Source: Tenggerimyces flavus
GTDB taxonomy: Bacteria; Actinomycetota; Actinomycetes; Propionibacteriales; Actinopolymorphaceae
Assembly (NCBI RefSeq): GCF_016907715.1
Contig: NZ_JAFBCM010000001.1
Location: 3,534,001 to 3,598,000 of the forward strand
DNA: 64,000 nucleotides
Direction: 5' to 3'
The first letter of the stretch is position 1. Every line of letters starts with the position of its first letter. The notes beneath the pieces were generated by a model that made no database searches, was not told the origin of the DNA, and was given only the letters and a program-made list of their open reading frames with translations. This document shows, one piece after another, positions 7,447-64,000 of the stretch. The translations under genes and the position numbers were made by a program.

Positions 7447-7847
7447 GAGGGGAGGGCGGCGGCGAGGTAGTGGTCCTGGGCGGCCGGGTCGCTCGCGATG
7501 CCCCAGTACTCGACGACCTTGCCGTCTCGTACGGTCATCACCTCGGCGCGGAGGATGTCCAGTTTGCGCCCGGCGTGCTCGCCCCGTACCCGAAGGAAGA
7601 CGATCGCGCGGTCGTCGTTCACGAGGACCTCCTGCGGTGTGACCCACAGGCCCGGGATCTGCAGCTGGCGGCGGAACATGGCCAGGCCCTCGTCGCCCTC
7701 GAGGTCGCCGGAGAGCGCGTTGTCGCCACCGAAGTGCCAGCGGGTCTGCTTGGTGAACACGTGCGCCACCTCGTCGGTCGCGCCGGCGGCGATGCGTCCG
7801 ATCGCGGTCCGCAGCCGCTGGGCGTTCGGGTGCTCCGCACCGTTCAT
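7443..7847 (-). CDS. NTF2-like/SnoaL-type protein
   Basis: A protein of 134 residues, the normal size for a single cone-shaped NTF2-like domain. Typical features are an early conserved W-HFGGDNALSG segment and the C-terminal pattern KVVEYWGI. It is similar to the neighbour just upstream (GGxNALSGD versus GGQHALSGDYHG) and overlaps it by ATGA, so the two are tandem duplicates in one transcript. Its stop codon shares bases with the stop of the convergent cyclase gene. NTF2-like proteins can be small enzymes (ketosteroid isomerase or SnoaL cyclase types) or ligand carriers; nothing here fixes the substrate. Confidence 0.85.
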   Translation of the reverse strand: MNGAEHPNAQRLRTAIGRIAAGATDEVAHVFTKQTRWHFGGDNALSGDLEGDEGLAMFRRQLQIPGLWVTPQEVLVNDDRAIVFLRVRGEHAGRKLDILRAEVMTVRDGKVVEYWGIASDPAAQDHYLAAALPS

Positions 7848-8248
7848 ACCGGTTGCCCCCAGAACTCGTCGACCGCGCGCTGGTCGTTGGCGAGGCCGAA
7901 CCGCCTGGTCCAGCGCCCCTGGTCGTCGAACTGGATCGCGAGCGCGATCGTGACGTCGAGCGCGCGGCCGAGCCGGGTGCCGAACACCCGGTAGATCACG
8001 GCGCTGTAGCGATCGCTGGCGAGAACGTCCTCGATCGTCATGCTCAACGTTCCGTTGGCGAGGCGCTGGGCCTCGCGGAGATGTTCGATGACGTTCTCCC
8101 GTCCGTGGTAGTCGCCGCTGAGCGCGTGCTGACCGCCGACGTTCCAGACGATGTCGTCTGCGAACCGCGTCGACATCGCCTCGAAGTCGCCCCGTCCGTA
8201 GGCGACGAAGGCCGCACGGACGTTGATCGCATGGGGGTGTTCCCGCAC
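7844..8248 (-). CDS. NTF2-like/SnoaL-type protein, first of a tandem pair
   Basis: A protein of 134 residues starting MREHPHAINVRAAFVAYGRGD and ending in a WGQPV tail. FADDIVWNVGG and the LSGDYHG turn are typical of SnoaL-like proteins, where an early Asp/His/Trp cluster lines the pocket. It is translationally coupled to the downstream paralogue by a four-base ATGA overlap, consistent with a heterodimer or a recent duplication. The upstream region is shared with the divergent small gene at 8335 and holds the GGTTACAC/GTGTAACC motif. Function and ligand are unknown. Confidence 0.85.
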   Translation of the reverse strand: MREHPHAINVRAAFVAYGRGDFEAMSTRFADDIVWNVGGQHALSGDYHGRENVIEHLREAQRLANGTLSMTIEDVLASDRYSAVIYRVFGTRLGRALDVTIALAIQFDDQGRWTRRFGLANDQRAVDEFWGQPV

Positions 8249-8275
8249 GCTAAGGGGGTCGCGTACGGATCGGTT

Positions 8276-8313
8276 CGGTTACACGAGGCCGTCCACGACC
8301 TGCGGTGTAACCG
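8276..8313. promoter_or_regulatory. Inverted motif CGGTTACAC ... GTGTAACCG
   Basis: Two perfect 9-base inverted arms, CGGTTACAC at 8276-8284 and GTGTAACCG at 8305-8313, are separated by 20 bases. They lie between the NTF2-like pair (minus) and the small gene at 8335 (plus). The same core, GGTTACA/TGTAACC, lies upstream of the paralogous small gene that begins near 11875. This looks like a regulator binding site shared by the two paralogues. Which protein binds is not known. Confidence 0.55.
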
Positions 8314-8334
8314 ATTGCCGGGCCGTACGTCTAG

Positions 8335-8580
8335 GTGCATATCGACGCATTAGCTGCTGACCGCCTGGTCCAGAAGCTCCGCGAGTTCTCCCGTAGCGGC
8401 CTGGACGAAGACGAACGCGCCCTCTTCGCGGTCCTCCTGGCGCCTGGGATCGCCCAGGCTTATGCGCGAGACGACGTGTCGGGGTACTCGGTGACGGAGT
8501 GGGATCCCCGGACGTTCCCCGAGTCGTTGGCGACCGCGTTGCGCGACTCGGGCGTGATGGTCGTCGGCCTCGACGACTGA
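8335..8580 (+). CDS. Small uncharacterised protein, paralogue A
   Basis: An 81-residue protein with a GTG start and no ribosome site; the sequence CTAGGTGCAT at the start suggests a leaderless transcript. It aligns along its length with the protein encoded at 11660-11875: both contain LDEDERALFAVLLAPG, then QAY-DDVSGY-TEW, then PESLA-ALRD-GV-VVGLD at the C-terminus. It is acidic, without Cys, signal peptide or membrane segment. I do not recognise the family. The two copies flank the GAF-protease-sigma unit and share an upstream inverted motif, so a regulatory or substrate role linked to that unit is possible but unproven. Confidence 0.75.
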   Translation: MHIDALAADRLVQKLREFSRSGLDEDERALFAVLLAPGIAQAYARDDVSGYSVTEWDPRTFPESLATALRDSGVMVVGLDD

Positions 8581-57386: not shown

Positions 57387-58970
57387 TTGTTCGCCACGCT
57401 TTCCGACCGCCTTGAAGCGACGTTCAAGAAGCTTCGCGGCAAGGGCCGGCTGACCGAAGCCGATATCGACACGACCGCGCGTGAGATCCGCATCGCCCTG
57501 CTCGAGGCGGACGTCGCGCTGCCGGTGGTGCGCGAGTTCATCGCTCAGGTCAAGGAACGCGCGCGCGGCGCGGACGTCCACCAGGCGCTGAATCCGGCCG
57601 AGCAGGTCGTCAAGATCGTCAACGAGGAGCTCGTCACGATCCTCGGCGGCGAGACCCGCACGCTCCGGTACGCCAAGACCCCACCGACCGTGATCCTGCT
57701 CGCCGGCCTCCAGGGCGCCGGTAAGACCACGCTCGCCGGCAAGCTCGGCCGCTGGCTCAAGGGCCAGGGGCACACGCCGATGCTCGTGGCGGCCGACCTG
57801 CAGCGCCCGAACGCGGTCGACCAGCTGAAGGTCGTCGGCGACCAGGCCGGCGTCGCGGTGTTCGCGCCCGAGCCGGGCAGCGGCGTCGGCGACCCGGTCG
57901 CGGTGGCGCGGCAGAGCATCGACCACGCCAAGCGGCAGCTGCACGACGTCGTGATCGTCGACACCGCTGGCCGGCTCGGTGTCGACGCCGACATGATGCA
58001 GCAGGCGATCGACATCCGCGACGCGGTGAAGCCGGACGAGATCCTGTTCGTCGTCGACGCGATGGTCGGCCAGGACGCGGTCACGACCGCCGAGGCGTTC
58101 CGCGACGGCGTCGGCTTCGACGGCGTCGTTCTGTCCAAGCTCGACGGCGACGCCCGCGGTGGCGCGGCGCTCTCGGTGCGGTACGTCACCGGCAAGCCGG
58201 TCATGTTCGCGTCGAACGGCGAGAAGCTCGACGACTTCGACGTCTTCCACCCCGACCGGATGGCGTCGCGCATCCTCGGCATGGGCGACGTCCTCACGCT
58301 GATCGAGCAGGCGGAGAAGGCGTTCGACGCCGACGAGGCCGAGAAGGTCGCGGAGAAGATCCGCAGCGAGCGCGGCTTCACGCTCGAGGACTTCCTGGCG
58401 CAGATGCAGTCCGTACGCAAGATGGGCTCGCTGCAGAAGATCCTCGGCATGCTCCCCGGCATGGGGGACATCCGCGAGCAGTTGGACCAGTTCGACGACC
58501 GCGAGCTCGACCGCGTCGAGGCGATCATCCGTTCGATGACGCCGTCCGAACGCGACGACCCCAAGCTGATCAACGGCTCCCGCCGCATGCGCATCGCGCG
58601 CGGCTCGGGCACCGAGGTGTCGGACGTCAACCGGCTGGTCGAGCGGTTCCTCGAAGCCCGCAAGATGATGAGCCAGCTCTCCCGCGGCAAGGGCCTCCCC
58701 GGCATGCCCGGTCTCCCGCCCGGCATGCAGGCCGCGATGGGTGGCAGCGGCGGCAAGAAGAAGGGCAAGGGCAAGAAGCAACGCGGCAAGGCTCGTTCGG
58801 GCAACCCCGCCAAGCGCGCCGCCCAGAACGCCGAACAAGCCCAACGCGCCGCCTCCGGAGCCCCGGGCGCTGCCTTCGGTGTCGAGCCGGAGCCGAACGG
58901 CCAGAGCGAGGAGAACTTCGAGCTGCCGAAGGAGTTCCGCCACCTCCTCGGCAACAAGGACGGCCAGTAG
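57387..58970 (+). CDS. ffh: Signal recognition particle protein Ffh
   Basis: A 527-residue protein, TTG start after AGAGGA. N domain (FATLSDRLEATFKKLRGKGRLTEADI), GTPase G domain (LLAGLQGAGKTTLAGKL near 103, DTAGRLGVDADMM, SKLDGDARGGAAL), and M domain (GFTLEDFLAQMQSVRKMGSLQKILGMLPG; SRRMRIARGSGTEVSDVNRLVERF), which binds 4.5S RNA and signal sequences. The C-terminal Gly/Lys/Ala-rich tail (GGKKKGKGKKQRGKARSG) is typical of actinobacteria. It partners with FtsY encoded at 14051. Confidence 0.98.
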   Translation: MFATLSDRLEATFKKLRGKGRLTEADIDTTAREIRIALLEADVALPVVREFIAQVKERARGADVHQALNPAEQVVKIVNEELVTILGGETRTLRYAKTPPTVILLAGLQGAGKTTLAGKLGRWLKGQGHTPMLVAADLQRPNAVDQLKVVGDQAGVAVFAPEPGSGVGDPVAVARQSIDHAKRQLHDVVIVDTAGRLGVDADMMQQAIDIRDAVKPDEILFVVDAMVGQDAVTTAEAFRDGVGFDGVVLSKLDGDARGGAALSVRYVTGKPVMFASNGEKLDDFDVFHPDRMASRILGMGDVLTLIEQAEKAFDADEAEKVAEKIRSERGFTLEDFLAQMQSVRKMGSLQKILGMLPGMGDIREQLDQFDDRELDRVEAIIRSMTPSERDDPKLINGSRRMRIARGSGTEVSDVNRLVERFLEARKMMSQLSRGKGLPGMPGLPPGMQAAMGGSGGKKKGKGKKQRGKARSGNPAKRAAQNAEQAQRAASGAPGAAFGVEPEPNGQSEENFELPKEFRHLLGNKDGQ

Positions 58971-59103: not shown

Positions 59104-61302
59104 GTGCCTGAGAATGCGGCCATCGGCCGCGACCATGACGAGCAGCTCCGCCGTGACCTCACCGATGTCAGTGAGCAGCTCGCGGCGACGAACGAGATCC
59201 TCGCCGCCCTCGGTCGGGGCTCGACCGACCCGGACGCGGTGCTCACCACGATCGTGGAGACCGTACGCCGGCTCTGCCGCGCGGACTCCGCCTTCGCCTA
59301 CCTGCTGGAGAGCGGGGAGTTCCGCATCGCGAAGTCGCTCGGCGTCGCGGGCGAGGTCGCCGACTACCTCGTCCACCATCCGCCGACGCTCGACCGCGGT
59401 GTGCTCATCGGCCGTGTCGCGATCGCTCACCACACCGAGCAGATCGTCGATGTGCTCGTCGATCCGGAGTACGCGCGGATGGACCTGCAGGAGCTCGCCG
59501 GCTTCCGGACCACGATCGGCACACCCATGCTCGTCGACGGCGAGGTCGTCGGCGTCCTCAACCTCTGGCGCAACACCGTGGACCCGTTCGACGAGCGTGA
59601 GACCGCTGTGCTGGAGGCGTTCTCGGCACCAGCCGCGATCGCGATCCGCACCCTCGACCTCGTCACCACCCTCGCGCGCAAGGTCGAGCAGCTCGAGGCG
59701 CTCGCCGAGGTCGGGGAGGCCGTCACCTCCAGCCTCGACCTCGACGAGGTCCTCGCCACGATCGTGATGAACGCCGTCCGCATGTCCGGCGCCGACGGCG
59801 GCTCGATCATGCAGTACGTCGAGGAGGACCGCGGCTTCTCCGTTCGGGCCGCGTACGGCACCAGCGCCGAGCTGCTCGCCAAGCTGCGCGGCATCCGGAT
59901 CGACCTCGCCACCACGCTGGTCGGCCGGTCCGCGCTCGAGGGCCGGCCCCTGCAGGAGCCCGACATCTCCTCCGTCGACCGCGACCCGCACCTGCAGCTG
60001 ATGTACGAGGACGGTTGGCGCTCGGTGCTCGTCGCGCCGATGCTGCGCCAGGGCAGCTACGTCGGCGCGTTCGTCGTACGCCGCAAGACACCCGGCGGCT
60101 TCCCCGCGAGCACGGTCGACCTGCTCGAGACCATTGCCAGCCAGTCCGCGCTGGCGATCCACAACGCCGGCCTGTACCGCGAGCTGGAGCTGAAGACGCA
60201 CGAGCTCGAGGTCGCGAGCCGGCACAAGTCGGAGTTCCTCGCGAGCATGTCGCACGAGCTGCGCACGCCGTTGAACGCGGTCATCGGCTTCTCCGAGGTG
60301 CTACTGGAACGCATGTTCGGCGACATCAACGACCGCCAGGAGGAGTACCTGCGCGACATCCGCAACTCCGGCAGGCACCTGCTCGAGCTGCTGAACGAGA
60401 TCCTCGACCTGTCCAAGGTCGAGGCCGGCCGCATGGAGCTCGAGCCGACGACGTTCTCGGTCCGCCAGGCACTCCAGTACGCGCTCGCGATGGTCCGCGA
60501 ACGCGCCGCGAACCACGGCATCGACGCGGTGCTGGTGATCGGCGACGGCGTGGACCTGGTCGAGACCGACGAGCTCCGCTTCAAGCAGGTCGTGCTCAAC
60601 CTGGTCAGCAACGCGGTGAAGTTCACCCCGGACGGCGGCCACGTGACGGTCCAGGCCAAGGTCGACGGTTCGGAGCTGCGGATCAGCGTCACCGACGACG
60701 GTCCGGGCATCCCGGTCGAGGACCGCGAGCGCATCTTCGAGTCGTTCCACCAGGGCGGCCGCGGCGCGCCGAAGGAGGAGGGCACGGGTCTCGGCCTCAC
60801 CCTGTCGCGGCGCATCGTGGAGCTGTTCGGCGGCGAGATGTGGCTCGACACCGAGGTCGGTCGCGGCAGCACGTTCGGCTTCACCGTCCCGCTCGACCGC
60901 GCACCGACGTTCGTGCCGGACGCGCCGGTGCGGAGCACGGTGGTCTTGATCGAGGACGACCGGACGTCCGCGGACCTGTTCTCGGCGTACCTCGAGGGCA
61001 CCGGCATCGACCTGGTCAAGGTCCGCGACGGCGACGACGGTCTCGCGAGGGTACGCAAGGTACGACCATCGGCAGTGCTGCTCGACATCCGCCTGCCGGG
61101 CATGGACGGATGGGACGTTCTCTCAGCCCTGCAAGGCGATCCGAGCACGGCGGACATCCCGGTCATCGTCGTGTCGATCGTCGACGAACGCAGCCGCGGC
61201 CTGGCGATGGGAGCGCGGGAGTACCTGCTCAAGCCCGTCGGCCGGGACGACCTGCGGCGCGCCCTCGCCCGCACCGGAGCGCTTCCGAAGGAGGTGCGAT
61301 GA
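59104..61302 (+). CDS. Hybrid histidine kinase: GAF-GAF-HisKA-HATPase-REC
   Basis: A protein of 732 residues from GTG 59104 (GAGGGAG 5 bases upstream; TTG 59029 lacks a site). Two GAF domains (about 25-180, 205-360), dimerisation helix with the phospho-His (ASMSHELRTPLNAVIGFSEVL, H384), ATPase (ETDELRFKQVVLNLVSNAVKFTPDGG, DDGPGIP, GTGLGLTLSRRIVELFGG), and a C-terminal receiver (VLIEDDRTSADLF, LLDIRLPGMDGWD). There is no TM helix, so it is a soluble sensor. Three further genes follow with four-base overlaps. Confidence 0.96.
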   Translation: MPENAAIGRDHDEQLRRDLTDVSEQLAATNEILAALGRGSTDPDAVLTTIVETVRRLCRADSAFAYLLESGEFRIAKSLGVAGEVADYLVHHPPTLDRGVLIGRVAIAHHTEQIVDVLVDPEYARMDLQELAGFRTTIGTPMLVDGEVVGVLNLWRNTVDPFDERETAVLEAFSAPAAIAIRTLDLVTTLARKVEQLEALAEVGEAVTSSLDLDEVLATIVMNAVRMSGADGGSIMQYVEEDRGFSVRAAYGTSAELLAKLRGIRIDLATTLVGRSALEGRPLQEPDISSVDRDPHLQLMYEDGWRSVLVAPMLRQGSYVGAFVVRRKTPGGFPASTVDLLETIASQSALAIHNAGLYRELELKTHELEVASRHKSEFLASMSHELRTPLNAVIGFSEVLLERMFGDINDRQEEYLRDIRNSGRHLLELLNEILDLSKVEAGRMELEPTTFSVRQALQYALAMVRERAANHGIDAVLVIGDGVDLVETDELRFKQVVLNLVSNAVKFTPDGGHVTVQAKVDGSELRISVTDDGPGIPVEDRERIFESFHQGGRGAPKEEGTGLGLTLSRRIVELFGGEMWLDTEVGRGSTFGFTVPLDRAPTFVPDAPVRSTVVLIEDDRTSADLFSAYLEGTGIDLVKVRDGDDGLARVRKVRPSAVLLDIRLPGMDGWDVLSALQGDPSTADIPVIVVSIVDERSRGLAMGAREYLLKPVGRDDLRRALARTGALPKEVR

Positions 61303-61676
61303 CCCAGCGGATCCTGGTCATCGAGGACAACGCCATGAACCTCAAGCTGGTGCGCGACGTGCTCCAGTACGCCGGCTACGAGGTCGTCTCGGCGCGTACG
61401 GGGGAGGAAGGACTCGCCGCCGCGGAACGGTACGAGCCCGACCTCGTCCTGATGGACCTGCAGCTCCCCGGGATCGACGGAACCGAGGCGCTCCGGCGGC
61501 TCCGCGAGAACGACGAGCGCCGCGTCCCCGTGGTCGCCGTCACCGCGTTCGCGATGCAGGCCGATCGCGACCGCGCGTTCGAAGCGGGCTTCGACGGCTA
61601 CCTGGAGAAGCCGATCAGCATCCGTGCGCTGCCCGCACAAGTGCAGAGTTTCCTCAACGGTGGAAAGCGGAAATGA
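61299..61676 (+). CDS. Single-domain response regulator (DivK-like)
   Basis: A 125-residue protein, only a receiver domain: ILVIEDNAMNLKLVRDVL, phospho-Asp in LVLMDLQLPGIDG (D53), VTAFAMQ with the conserved Thr, and EKPI with the Lys. No output domain. Such proteins shuttle phosphate or bind partners allosterically. It is placed between a hybrid kinase and a receiver-cyclase, so it could be the intermediate or a phosphate sink. ATGA overlaps on both sides. Confidence 0.96.
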   Translation: MTQRILVIEDNAMNLKLVRDVLQYAGYEVVSARTGEEGLAAAERYEPDLVLMDLQLPGIDGTEALRRLRENDERRVPVVAVTAFAMQADRDRAFEAGFDGYLEKPISIRALPAQVQSFLNGGKRK

Positions 61677-62797
61677 CCGAGACGACGGTGCTGGTCGTCG
61701 ACGACCAGCCACAGAACGTACGACTCCTCGACGCCGTGCTCTCCCCACGCGGCTATCGCGTCCTCCGGGCGGACTCCGGCACGGCCGCGCTGGACCAACT
61801 GGAGACCGAGGACGTCGACCTCGTCCTGCTCGACATCGTGATGCCGAAGATGGACGGCTACGAGGTGTGCGAACGCATCCGCGCGAACGAGGCGACCGCG
61901 TTCCTGCCCGTCGTGATGATCACGGCGAGCGGGGACCAGGAGAAGCTGCGCGCCCTGCAGAGCGGCGCGGACGACTTCGTGACGAAGCCGTTCAACCAGG
62001 CCGAGCTGCTGGCGCGAGTGGCGTCGCTGGCGAAGGTGAAGCGCTACCACGAGACCGTACGCAAGCAGGCCGCCGAGCTCGCGGCCTGGAACCGGGAGCT
62101 GGAGAACCGCGTCGCGACACAGGTCGCGGAGCTCGAACGGGTCGGGCGGCTACGCCGGTTTCTCTCGCCCCAGTTGGCTGGTCTGGTCATCGACTCCGGC
62201 GACGAGTCGTTCCTGGAGAGCCATCGGCGGGAGATCGTCGTGGTCTTCTGCGACCTGCGCGGGTTCACCCCGTTCGCCGAGTCGAGCGAGCCGGAGGAGG
62301 TGATCGGCGTCATCCGCGAGTACCACGCGGCGCTCGGCGACCTGGTCTTCCGCTTCGAGGGAACGCTGGAACGCTTCACCGGCGATGGGCTGATGGTGTT
62401 CTTCAACGACCCGCTGCCGTGCGACGACGCGCCGCAGCGCGCGCTGCGGATGGCGGTCGCGATGCGGACCCGCGTACGCGAGCTGGCCGAGGGCTGGACC
62501 CGCCGCGGTCACGAGCTGGGCTTCAGCCTCGGCGTCTCGCAGGGGTACGCGACGCTCGGCCGGATCGGGTTCGAGGGACGCTTCGACTACGCCGCGATCG
62601 GCAGTGTCACCAACCTCGCGGACCGGTTGTGCTCGGCGGCCAAGCCCTGGCAGATCCTCACCACCCAACGCGTGCTGTCCGAGGCGGACGGCGTGGCGGT
62701 CGGCGACGCGGTGGGCGAGCTCATGCTGAAGGGCTTCAGCCGGCCGGTGAAGACGTACGACGTGAAGGGCCTGGACGAGTCGCGGGTGCCGCGATGA
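61673..62797 (+). CDS. Receiver-linked class III adenylate/guanylate cyclase
   Basis: A 374-residue protein. Receiver at 1-120 (VLVVDDQPQNVRLLDAVL, phospho-Asp D54 in LVLLDIVMPKMDGYE, VTKPF). A coiled coil follows (ETVRKQAAELAAWNRELENRVATQVAELERV). Class III cyclase at about 185-365: VVVFCDLRGFTPFAE (metal Asp), RFTGDGLMVFFND (second Asp), FDYAAIGSVTNLADRL (N-x3-R). All key catalytic residues are present. The kinase operon thus makes a cyclic nucleotide, or the domain has another triphosphate role. It overlaps the ATP-grasp gene. Confidence 0.95.
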   Translation: MTETTVLVVDDQPQNVRLLDAVLSPRGYRVLRADSGTAALDQLETEDVDLVLLDIVMPKMDGYEVCERIRANEATAFLPVVMITASGDQEKLRALQSGADDFVTKPFNQAELLARVASLAKVKRYHETVRKQAAELAAWNRELENRVATQVAELERVGRLRRFLSPQLAGLVIDSGDESFLESHRREIVVVFCDLRGFTPFAESSEPEEVIGVIREYHAALGDLVFRFEGTLERFTGDGLMVFFNDPLPCDDAPQRALRMAVAMRTRVRELAEGWTRRGHELGFSLGVSQGYATLGRIGFEGRFDYAAIGSVTNLADRLCSAAKPWQILTTQRVLSEADGVAVGDAVGELMLKGFSRPVKTYDVKGLDESRVPR

Positions 62798-64000
62798 CCG
62801 GCATGCTGCGCGGCGACGTCTCCGCGAAGCCGTTGACGCTGTCCCAGTTGAACGAGACGGCGCGGTACGAGCGCTTCGACGAGCTGCAGCGGCGGATGCC
62901 CGCGGTGTGGGACGCGATGCGGCTCAACCACGCCGACGAGAGCGTGGTCGTCGTTCCGTCGGTGAGCATCGACCGCGCGGTCGCGTACCCGGGCAGCCTG
63001 AGCCAGGCGTACGAGGAACGCCTGCTGTTCTTGCTGCTGTTGCTGCGACAGCCCCGGCTGCGGATGACGTACGTGACCTCGATGCCGATCGCGCCGGGGA
63101 TCGTCGAGTACTACCTCGCGCTGCTGCCCGGCGTGATCCCGAGCCACGCGCGCGCCCGGCTCGATCTGGTGTCCGTCGACGACGCGTCGCCCGCGTCGCT
63201 GAGCGAGAAGCTGCTCGCCCGGCCACGGCTGCTCGCGAAGATCGCGGCGGGCATCGCGAACCCGCGGCGCTCGCACCTGATCCCGTACAACACGACCACG
63301 CTCGAACGCGACATCGCGATCTCGCTCGGCATCCCCATGTACGGTGCCGATCCGCGACTCGCCGAGCTCGGCACGAAGACCGGCTGCCGGCGGCTGTTCG
63401 CCGAGACCGGTGTGCCGTACCCGCTCGGCTTCGAGAACCTGCACGACGTCGAGGAGGTCGTCGAGGCGATCGGGTCGATGCGCCGCACCCGGCCGACGAT
63501 CGCGGAGGTCATCGTCAAGCTCGACGAGGGGGTCGCGGGCGCGGGCAACGCGACCGTCGACCTGCGCGGGCTGCCGGAGCCCGGCTCCGCGGGGGAGCGC
63601 GACGCGGTGCGCGAACGGGTCCTGGGCATGCGGCTCGAAGCGCAGGGGACGCCGCTCGACACGTACCTCGCCAAGCTCACCGAGGGAGGGATCGTCGAGG
63701 AACGCATCACCGGGCAGGAACTGCGCAGCCCGAGCGTGCAGCTGCGGATCACGCCGAACGGCTCGGTCGAGCTGCTCTCGACGCACGACCAGCTGCTCGG
63801 CGGGCTGACCGGGCAGACGTACCTCGGCTGCGTGTTCCCGGCCGAACCCGCGTACGCGCGGACGATCTCCACGCACGCCGCGGCGATCGCCGACCGGCTC
63901 GTGGGGCTGGGCGTGCTCGGGCGGTTCGCGATCGACTTCGTGGTGGCGCGCGAGCGGGACGGGTCGTGGTCGGCGTACGCGATCGAGGTCACCTGCGCAA
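62794..64000 (+). CDS. ATP-grasp peptide ligase, PGM1-related (3' end missing)
   Basis: The frame is open from ATG 62794 (ATGA overlap) to the window end, 402 codons, no stop. N-terminal domain: LNETARYERFDELQRRMPAVWDAMRLNHADESVVVVPS. Middle: LIPYNTTTLERDIAISLGIPMYGADPRLAELGTKTGCRRLFAETGVPYPLGFENLHD, where the ATP-grasp fold begins, with VIVKLDEGVAGAGNATVDLRG as the nucleotide-binding Lys segment. The layout is that of the ligases related to pheganomycin PGM1, which join an amino acid-like group to a peptide. Linkage to a phosphorelay with cyclase is unusual. The substrate is not predictable here. Confidence 0.85.
   Translation, partial: MTGMLRGDVSAKPLTLSQLNETARYERFDELQRRMPAVWDAMRLNHADESVVVVPSVSIDRAVAYPGSLSQAYEERLLFLLLLLRQPRLRMTYVTSMPIAPGIVEYYLALLPGVIPSHARARLDLVSVDDASPASLSEKLLARPRLLAKIAAGIANPRRSHLIPYNTTTLERDIAISLGIPMYGADPRLAELGTKTGCRRLFAETGVPYPLGFENLHDVEEVVEAIGSMRRTRPTIAEVIVKLDEGVAGAGNATVDLRGLPEPGSAGERDAVRERVLGMRLEAQGTPLDTYLAKLTEGGIVEERITGQELRSPSVQLRITPNGSVELLSTHDQLLGGLTGQTYLGCVFPAEPAYARTISTHAAAIADRLVGLGVLGRFAIDFVVARERDGSWSAYAIEVTCA

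Follow-up and report, generated by a model that had tools for sequence, protein, structure and literature searches.

The described systems nearest to the locus reported here include two ATP-grasp ligases, BesA and the PGM1 of pheganomycin, together with the class III nucleotide cyclases. The bond made by BesA is a gamma-glutamyl bond, and RimK adds amino acids to a protein. Class III cyclases are recognised by residues of established role, namely the metal-binding Asp, an Asn, an Arg, and the Lys and Thr/Asp that select the base. The structure entry of BesA (PDB 8yi6) names it an L-propargylglycine--L-glutamate ligase, which joins glutamate to propargylglycine. In the available passages of a paper on graspetide and branch-6 ATP-grasp loci (PMC8939145), PGM1 is called distantly related to the ATP-grasp branch treated there. 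The present analysis concerns a stretch of 64,000 nucleotides of Tenggerimyces flavus (bases 3534001-3598000 of an 8.52-Mb single contig, hereafter the window), at the right end of which a hybrid kinase, a lone receiver, a receiver-cyclase and an ATP-grasp ligase are encoded by four overlapping genes. This arrangement was found to be conserved across a clade of actinobacterial ligases, in which the cyclase and the ligase are inherited together.

A preliminary description of the window had claimed four same-strand genes with these domains at 59104-64000, joined by ATGA overlaps; Pfam searches and the sequence bear out the genes as well as the three junctions. The features are given below in window coordinates.

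59104-61302, + strand: hybrid sensor kinase of 732 aa, with GAF, GAF, HisKA, HATPase_c and a C-terminal receiver (Pfam)
61299-61302, + strand: kinase/lone-receiver ATGA start/stop overlap (sequence; same overlap in 22/27 loci)
61299-61676, + strand: lone receiver (Response_reg) of 125 aa, with an ATGA overlap with both neighbours (Pfam)
61673-61676, + strand: lone-receiver/receiver-cyclase ATGA overlap (sequence; same overlap in 19/28 loci)
61673-62797, + strand: receiver-linker-class III nucleotide cyclase of 374 aa (Response_reg, Guanylate_cyc; Pfam, alignment)
62794-62797, + strand: receiver-cyclase/ligase ATGA overlap (sequence; same overlap in 32/38 loci)
62794-64000, + strand: 5' part of a BesA/PGM1-like ATP-grasp ligase, the gene continuing to about 64,382, past the window (Pfam, NCBIfam, ortholog matches)

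Relatives were collected by scanning one genome per species with the clade ligase alignment, which found at least 506; the best 80 are the named loci (L numbers), and clade counts refer to these 80 plus the window, whose continuation was read as L009 (window position = L009 position + 55999). A tblastn map of the window proteins separated 40 actinobacterial loci, which have the module or stand next to it in sequence, from 41 others, mostly of other phyla with a few deep-branching actinobacterial metagenome-assembled genomes (MAGs); L090 and L126, in which the contig begins at or within the ligase gene, were placed by closeness. The receiver-cyclase lies directly upstream of the ligase in all 38 testable clade loci (window included), and 36 of these 38 also have a kinase upstream on that strand; the exceptions are L089, with kinase and receiver downstream on the other strand, and L094, which yielded no kinase. 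Twenty-eight of the 38 keep the lone receiver in its place, and the loci without it there are nine mycobacterial ones and L089. The 4-base overlap is kept at most junctions (counts in the feature list), including 6/9 where kinase and cyclase adjoin directly. Among the genera that carry the module are Kribbella, Nocardioides, Cellulomonas, Microbacterium, Agromyces, Knoellia, Intrasporangium and Mycolicibacterium. Outside the clade, the module is absent from the 35 loci (of 41) with at least 1,200 bases upstream, and too little upstream sequence to tell is available at L116, L118, L119, L120, L121 and L131.

Two variants of the layout were recorded. At L089 (12906-16218) a CRP gene, a receiver and a kinase stand together downstream on the opposite strand, the kinase being nearest those of L075 and L077, so that this appears to be a rearranged cassette. 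At L097, L099, L100, L102 and L106 (mostly Intrasporangiaceae) an extra receiver-like match follows the kinase and is probably part of a longer kinase open reading frame (ORF) of 883-1032 aa.

Since the 40/41 split itself drew on the neighbours, the ligase tree provides independent evidence. A quick maximum-likelihood search on 82 ligases (midpoint root, no bootstrap; L117 and L126 left out) grouped the 38 signalling-linked ligases with L090 in a single clade that contains no other row, at a Shimodaira-Hasegawa-like approximate likelihood-ratio (SH-aLRT) support of 99. A clade set by ligase sequence alone thus has the cyclase wherever the upstream side is visible. Correlations of tree distances over 37 loci were 0.909 for cyclase-ligase, 0.824 for kinase-cyclase and 0.801 for kinase-ligase, against permutation maxima of 0.18 to 0.23, and strong splits recurring in the ligase tree numbered 20/21 for the cyclase and 15/24 for the kinase. 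These correlations and recurring splits point to the cyclase-ligase pair as the core of the cassette.

Co-occurrence of the ligase with the receiver-cyclase in other actinobacteria, proposed earlier as a check, was found not only in the 38 clade loci but also among 293 genomes of the order: ligase orthologs occur in 16, cyclase orthologs in 17 and both in 15 (hypergeometric p 4e-22, a value that ignores the relatedness of the genomes and overstates the evidence). Orthologs were counted at 59% identity or more for the ligase and 61% or more for the cyclase, the query for the latter being its C-terminal 255 aa; distant ligases (35-44% identity), matches of E 1e-5 or worse and a cyclase match of 44% in genome G096 were left uncounted. 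Fourteen of the 15 order ligase orthologs besides that of the window have the cyclase directly upstream, the exception being G104. In the phylum sample, the two close ligase orthologs (G305, G377) have the cyclase directly upstream, and the ligase of G438 (58%) does not. According to the preliminary description, the arrangement would be a local accident if homologous ligases stood nearly always without signalling genes and synteny were not conserved. Ligases without the module are indeed common in the wider family (41/81 loci, six of them with too little upstream sequence), all outside the clade; synteny within it is conserved and the genes are co-inherited. Because conservation, overlap, tree and co-occurrence agree, the kinase-cyclase-ligase pairing is confirmed to be real and not a product of local chance.

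The ligase was compared with solved structures using a profile of 17 ligases. BesA is its nearest solved relative (E 6e-65, profile positions 48-506 of 517), followed by matches to another ATP-grasp peptide ligase (PDB 8ynd, E 1e-4) and, weakly, to solved PGM1 (3wvq, E 0.22, profile positions 126-258). The PGM1 type proposed at first is thereby weakened: an ATP-grasp ligase it is, and the PGM1_C domain (PF18105) scores above the Pfam cut-off (44.5 bits vs 22.5, in the second reading frame described below), but BesA is far closer than PGM1. The N-terminal frame (62794-64000) also matches the Pfam family ATP-grasp_IQCH (E 1.2e-18), named after an animal protein.

The ligase gene of the window carries a one-base frame break near 63,991, inside the motif E-x-N-L-R-K. 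The frame that opens at 62794 ends at a stop at 64080, and all 15 order orthologs match the window ligase only up to query residue 403. In eight genomes, six from the order sample (G116, G110, G113, G074, G101, G115) and two from the phylum sample (G377, G416), another frame of the relative holds a second match (about residues 398-428). The last 129 ligase residues, 67% identical to Kribbella, are read in the second frame, which stops at about 64,382, and relatives carry intact copies. Among the 17 aligned ligases the Glu of the motif is invariant and the Asn, Leu and Arg are nearly so. The earlier claim that the sequence shows the catalytic residues is therefore borne out only in part, the Asn and the rest of the motif being out of frame. 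As a single lesion in an otherwise well-kept gene, the break fits either an assembly error or a recent break. Programmed frameshifting was considered and set aside, no slippery run being seen in the ligase sequence on inspection by eye only.

The signalling proteins keep most of their expected residues. HisKA and HATPase_c domains are present together with receivers carrying phospho-acceptors, as in a two-component phosphorelay: the phospho-His is kept in 37/37 aligned kinases and the Asp of the kinase receiver in 33/37 (Glu in 4), and a phospho-acceptor Asp is also present in the receiver-cyclase and, by eye only, in the lone receiver. The second GAF of the kinase shows weak similarity to 6oap, a dual sensor histidine kinase (E 3.8e-8), and to 5w10, a cyclic-GMP-specific phosphodiesterase (E 2.6e-5), a slight hint that it may sense a ligand or nucleotide. 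The cyclase belongs by its Guanylate_cyc domain (49.7 bits vs a cut-off of 21.9) to class III; both metal Asp and the Arg are kept in 37/37, the Asn is invariant in the 11 aligned rows, and the nearest solved structures are CyaB (3r5g, E 7.5e-33) and 2w01 (E 1.5e-25). The canonical ATP-selecting pair of Lys and Thr/Asp was found in none of the 37 cyclases.

In 17/40 clade loci, and in 0/41 others, the next gene after the ligase encodes a protein of about 210 aa; fewer than 700 bases of downstream sequence, too little for such a gene, are available at L079 and L086 (clade) and L135 (outside). The start of this gene lies between -8 and +19 bases from the ligase stop, and it adjoins the ligase in 13/15 order orthologs. 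An exemplar gave no Pfam match, and 11 members gave no NCBIfam match beyond one at chance level. The predicted model of the protein (predicted local distance difference test, pLDDT, 91) has the fold of gamma-glutamylcyclotransferase (GGCT), with a Foldseek E of 5e-7, template-modelling (TM) scores of 0.53 and 0.65 and, against human GGCT (2rbh/3cry), a VIA-align Z of 13.7 and a root-mean-square deviation of 2.7-3.0 over 145-146 residues; the sequence itself matches GGCT no better than E 0.1. Absence of a protein from the VIA-align list does not rule out a similar fold. All 11 sequences aligned share Tyr9, Asn12 and Glu98. We take these residues to correspond to the YGSN motif and the catalytic Glu of GGCT. 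A motif scan found no GGCT-like ORF in the 41 outside loci.

A CRP-family gene stands near six loci, three of Nocardioides (L075, L077, L089) and three of Intrasporangiaceae (L100, L102, L106), and one exemplar contains cNMP_binding and HTH_Crp_2; these genes support a cyclic nucleotide as a probable output. Pfam was run on chosen exemplars, covering part of the recurring neighbour families. Further families recur upstream of the kinase in the mycobacterial loci L082, L083, L086, L088, L093, L096 and L141, and the exemplars from L141 are a PP2C-like phosphatase, a VWA protein and an FHA protein. A common partner for the ligases outside the clade was also looked for, and the scanned neighbours are mixed (DEAD helicase, class-V aminotransferase, MOSC, cupin, BTAD-AAA-TPR regulator, alpha/beta hydrolase, NusA and others). 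Among these outside loci, L133 of a Vicinamibacteria MAG has, directly upstream of the ligase (7676-8524), a HATPase protein whose receiver match falls short of the Pfam cut-off, perhaps a second, separate link between such ligases and signalling; at L122 a cyclase-AAA protein is divergent from the ligase.

The reading favoured here, held tentatively and at somewhat less than even chance, is an actinobacterial signalling cassette in which a phosphorelay-controlled cyclase is co-produced with a gamma-glutamyl-type ligase, often beside an enzyme that may undo its product. The GAF-GAF hybrid kinase would sense an internal small molecule or state and hand phosphate on to two acceptors, the lone receiver and the receiver-cyclase; phosphorylation of the latter would switch the synthesis of a cyclic nucleotide. 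Coupled translation of the same mRNA would yield the BesA-type ATP-grasp ligase, which would form an amide, probably of gamma-glutamyl type, from a common metabolite. In many relatives the GGCT-fold enzyme encoded by the next gene could undo that amide, and at some loci the CRP-family regulator could read the cyclic nucleotide. The data show the genes present and their overlaps, a single ligase clade, the joint inheritance of cyclase and ligase, the insertion in the window genome and, from a predicted model, the GGCT fold of the partner. We infer the phosphate route, the nucleotide made, the substrate of the ligase, the make-and-undo pairing and the link between the two outputs; control would presumably run in the direction set out here, and any contact between ligase and cyclase is equally conjectural. 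The earlier interpretation is supported in part: a signal-controlled modification or small-molecule product stays plausible, but BesA rather than PGM1 is the closest solved structure, and the neighbours that prove informative are the GGCT-fold gene and, at some loci, the CRP regulator.

Several observations weigh against this reading. The window's own ligase is frameshifted, and its N-terminal frame, the only part scored, is far from the NCBIfam equivalog cut-off for BesA (95.3 vs 750 bits). No HPt match was found by Pfam in the four operon proteins, the rest of the genome not having been searched for HPt. In the cyclases the base-contacting Lys site holds Arg in 32 and His in 5 of 37, and the Thr/Asp site Ala in 30, Ser in 6 and Thr in 1; because these base-picking residues are non-canonical, ATP or GTP as substrate cannot be predicted from them and even cyclase activity is open to doubt. 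The lone receiver is missing in 10/38 loci and a kinase beside the cyclase in 2/38. The ligase of G104 has no adjacent cyclase, and G135 and G284 have a cyclase and no ligase ortholog. The ligase tree, moreover, is a quick search with a midpoint root and no bootstrap, on related genomes that are not independent. A search of the window genome with the GGCT-fold profile gave nothing at E 1e-8, and the GGCT-fold family occurs in 57/293 order genomes, 44 of which have no ortholog of the window ligase; the family is for this reason not dedicated to the cassette and has other roles too.

An extended form of the proposal supposes that one phosphorelay governs two outputs, the cyclic nucleotide and a new gamma-glutamyl-type amide signal, which the ligase would produce and the GGCT-fold enzyme break down; one of the two outputs would be read by the GAF domains as feedback. 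It is decidedly unlikely in this complete form.

Among the alternatives, the one that survives best makes the four genes an ordinary two-component and cyclic-nucleotide regulator, the ligase being a merely co-regulated metabolic enzyme and the two outputs never meeting. In its favour, G104 (L019) retains the ligase and the GGCT-fold gene with no cyclase adjoining them, and ligases outside the clade do without the module. The cyclase-ligase overlap and the matched trees across the clade, which speak for co-inheritance and not for contact, count against it, and it is judged possible, if rather unlikely.

A peptide natural-product locus could account for the PGM1_C domain: like PGM1, the ligase would cap a ribosomal peptide, with kinase, receivers and cyclase as regulators of the pathway. 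However, the junctions overlap or nearly do so, leaving no space for a precursor gene among the four genes (the flanks were not searched for short ORFs), which argues against a PGM1-like ribosomal peptide; no transporter or tailoring-enzyme set recurs in the scanned part of the clade neighbours, and the profile search favours BesA over PGM1. The precursor peptide, transporter or GNAT that the preliminary description had thought would be telling was likewise not seen: the genes leave no room for the first, and no transporter or GNAT is common among the Pfam-scanned neighbour families. This alternative is improbable.

It is more doubtful still that the ligase tags proteins, adding amino acids, as RimK does, to a receiver, the cyclase or another signalling protein. 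Cyclase and ligase form the tightest co-inherited pair and overlap in 32/38 loci, which would fit a physical pair, but relatives outside the clade have no module, and we know of no BesA-like enzyme that acts on proteins.

The position of the cassette in the window genome was examined against the left flank, ffh:

57387-58970, + strand: ffh, left flank of the inserted cassette (Pfam; family-genome comparison)

On the right, outside the window, an amidohydrolase gene starts at 64523, 140 bases past the end of the C-terminal ligase frame. All seven other family genomes have ffh next to the amidohydrolase gene and lack the ligase; only in the window genome does the cassette lie between the two genes. 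Because of this adjacency and absence, the cassette is an acquired one, inserted here and unrelated to the function of ffh. Local chance or hitch-hiking beside ffh, which the location inside the ffh-amidohydrolase pair might suggest, is scarcely credible, being effectively ruled out by synteny conserved in many families, by the overlaps and the ligase tree, and by the lack of any ffh match within the 80 named loci (tblastn map with ffh as query). Between the ligase and amidohydrolase genes, a strong hairpin (z -4.1) belongs to an element of about 130 bases (L009 8384-8523, about 64383-64522), for which 26 matches are listed in the same genome, itself and its own reverse counted, with widely varying length and strength.

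The preliminary description knew of no system of such composition, and no description was found in open-licence PubMed Central, whose coverage leaves subscription papers largely outside, PMC8939145 coming nearest; each part is of a known family, and it is their lasting union that is undescribed in that literature. An uncharacterised ligase clade thereby gains a partner set that can be tested, directly so in the Kribbella loci, where the genes are intact. The arrangement suggests that some bacteria may put the synthesis of an amide, and perhaps its removal, inside a phosphorelay and cyclic-nucleotide circuit.

Compared with known systems, the locus resembles each in part. The graspetide and branch-6 loci of PMC8939145 share ATP-grasp enzymes and, among the neighbours of one branch, adenylate cyclases; they differ in their YcaO, radical SAM and polyketide genes, and the available passages mention no kinase-receiver-cyclase-ligase operon. 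With PGM1 of pheganomycin the ligase has in common the PGM1_C domain and its ATP-grasp nature, but the match is weak and the four overlapping genes admit no precursor gene. Human GGCT shares its fold and the invariant Tyr9, Asn12 and Glu98 with the protein encoded downstream in relatives, which, unlike GGCT, falls in no Pfam or NCBIfam family, meets it by sequence only marginally and is absent from the window genome. CyaB and 2w01 align with the cyclase domain along its full length, whereas the operon cyclase has Arg or His in place of Lys and mostly Ala or Ser in place of Thr, a receiver as its input and a ligase as its partner. The closest likeness is to BesA, compared here at the level of the ligase: the alignment is nearly full-length, with common motifs including GxKSG, SPS, HDQ, FPAD, DFVV and E-x-N-L-R-K, and the window ligase differs in scoring, over its N-terminal frame, below the BesA equivalog cut-off and in being housed in a signalling operon.

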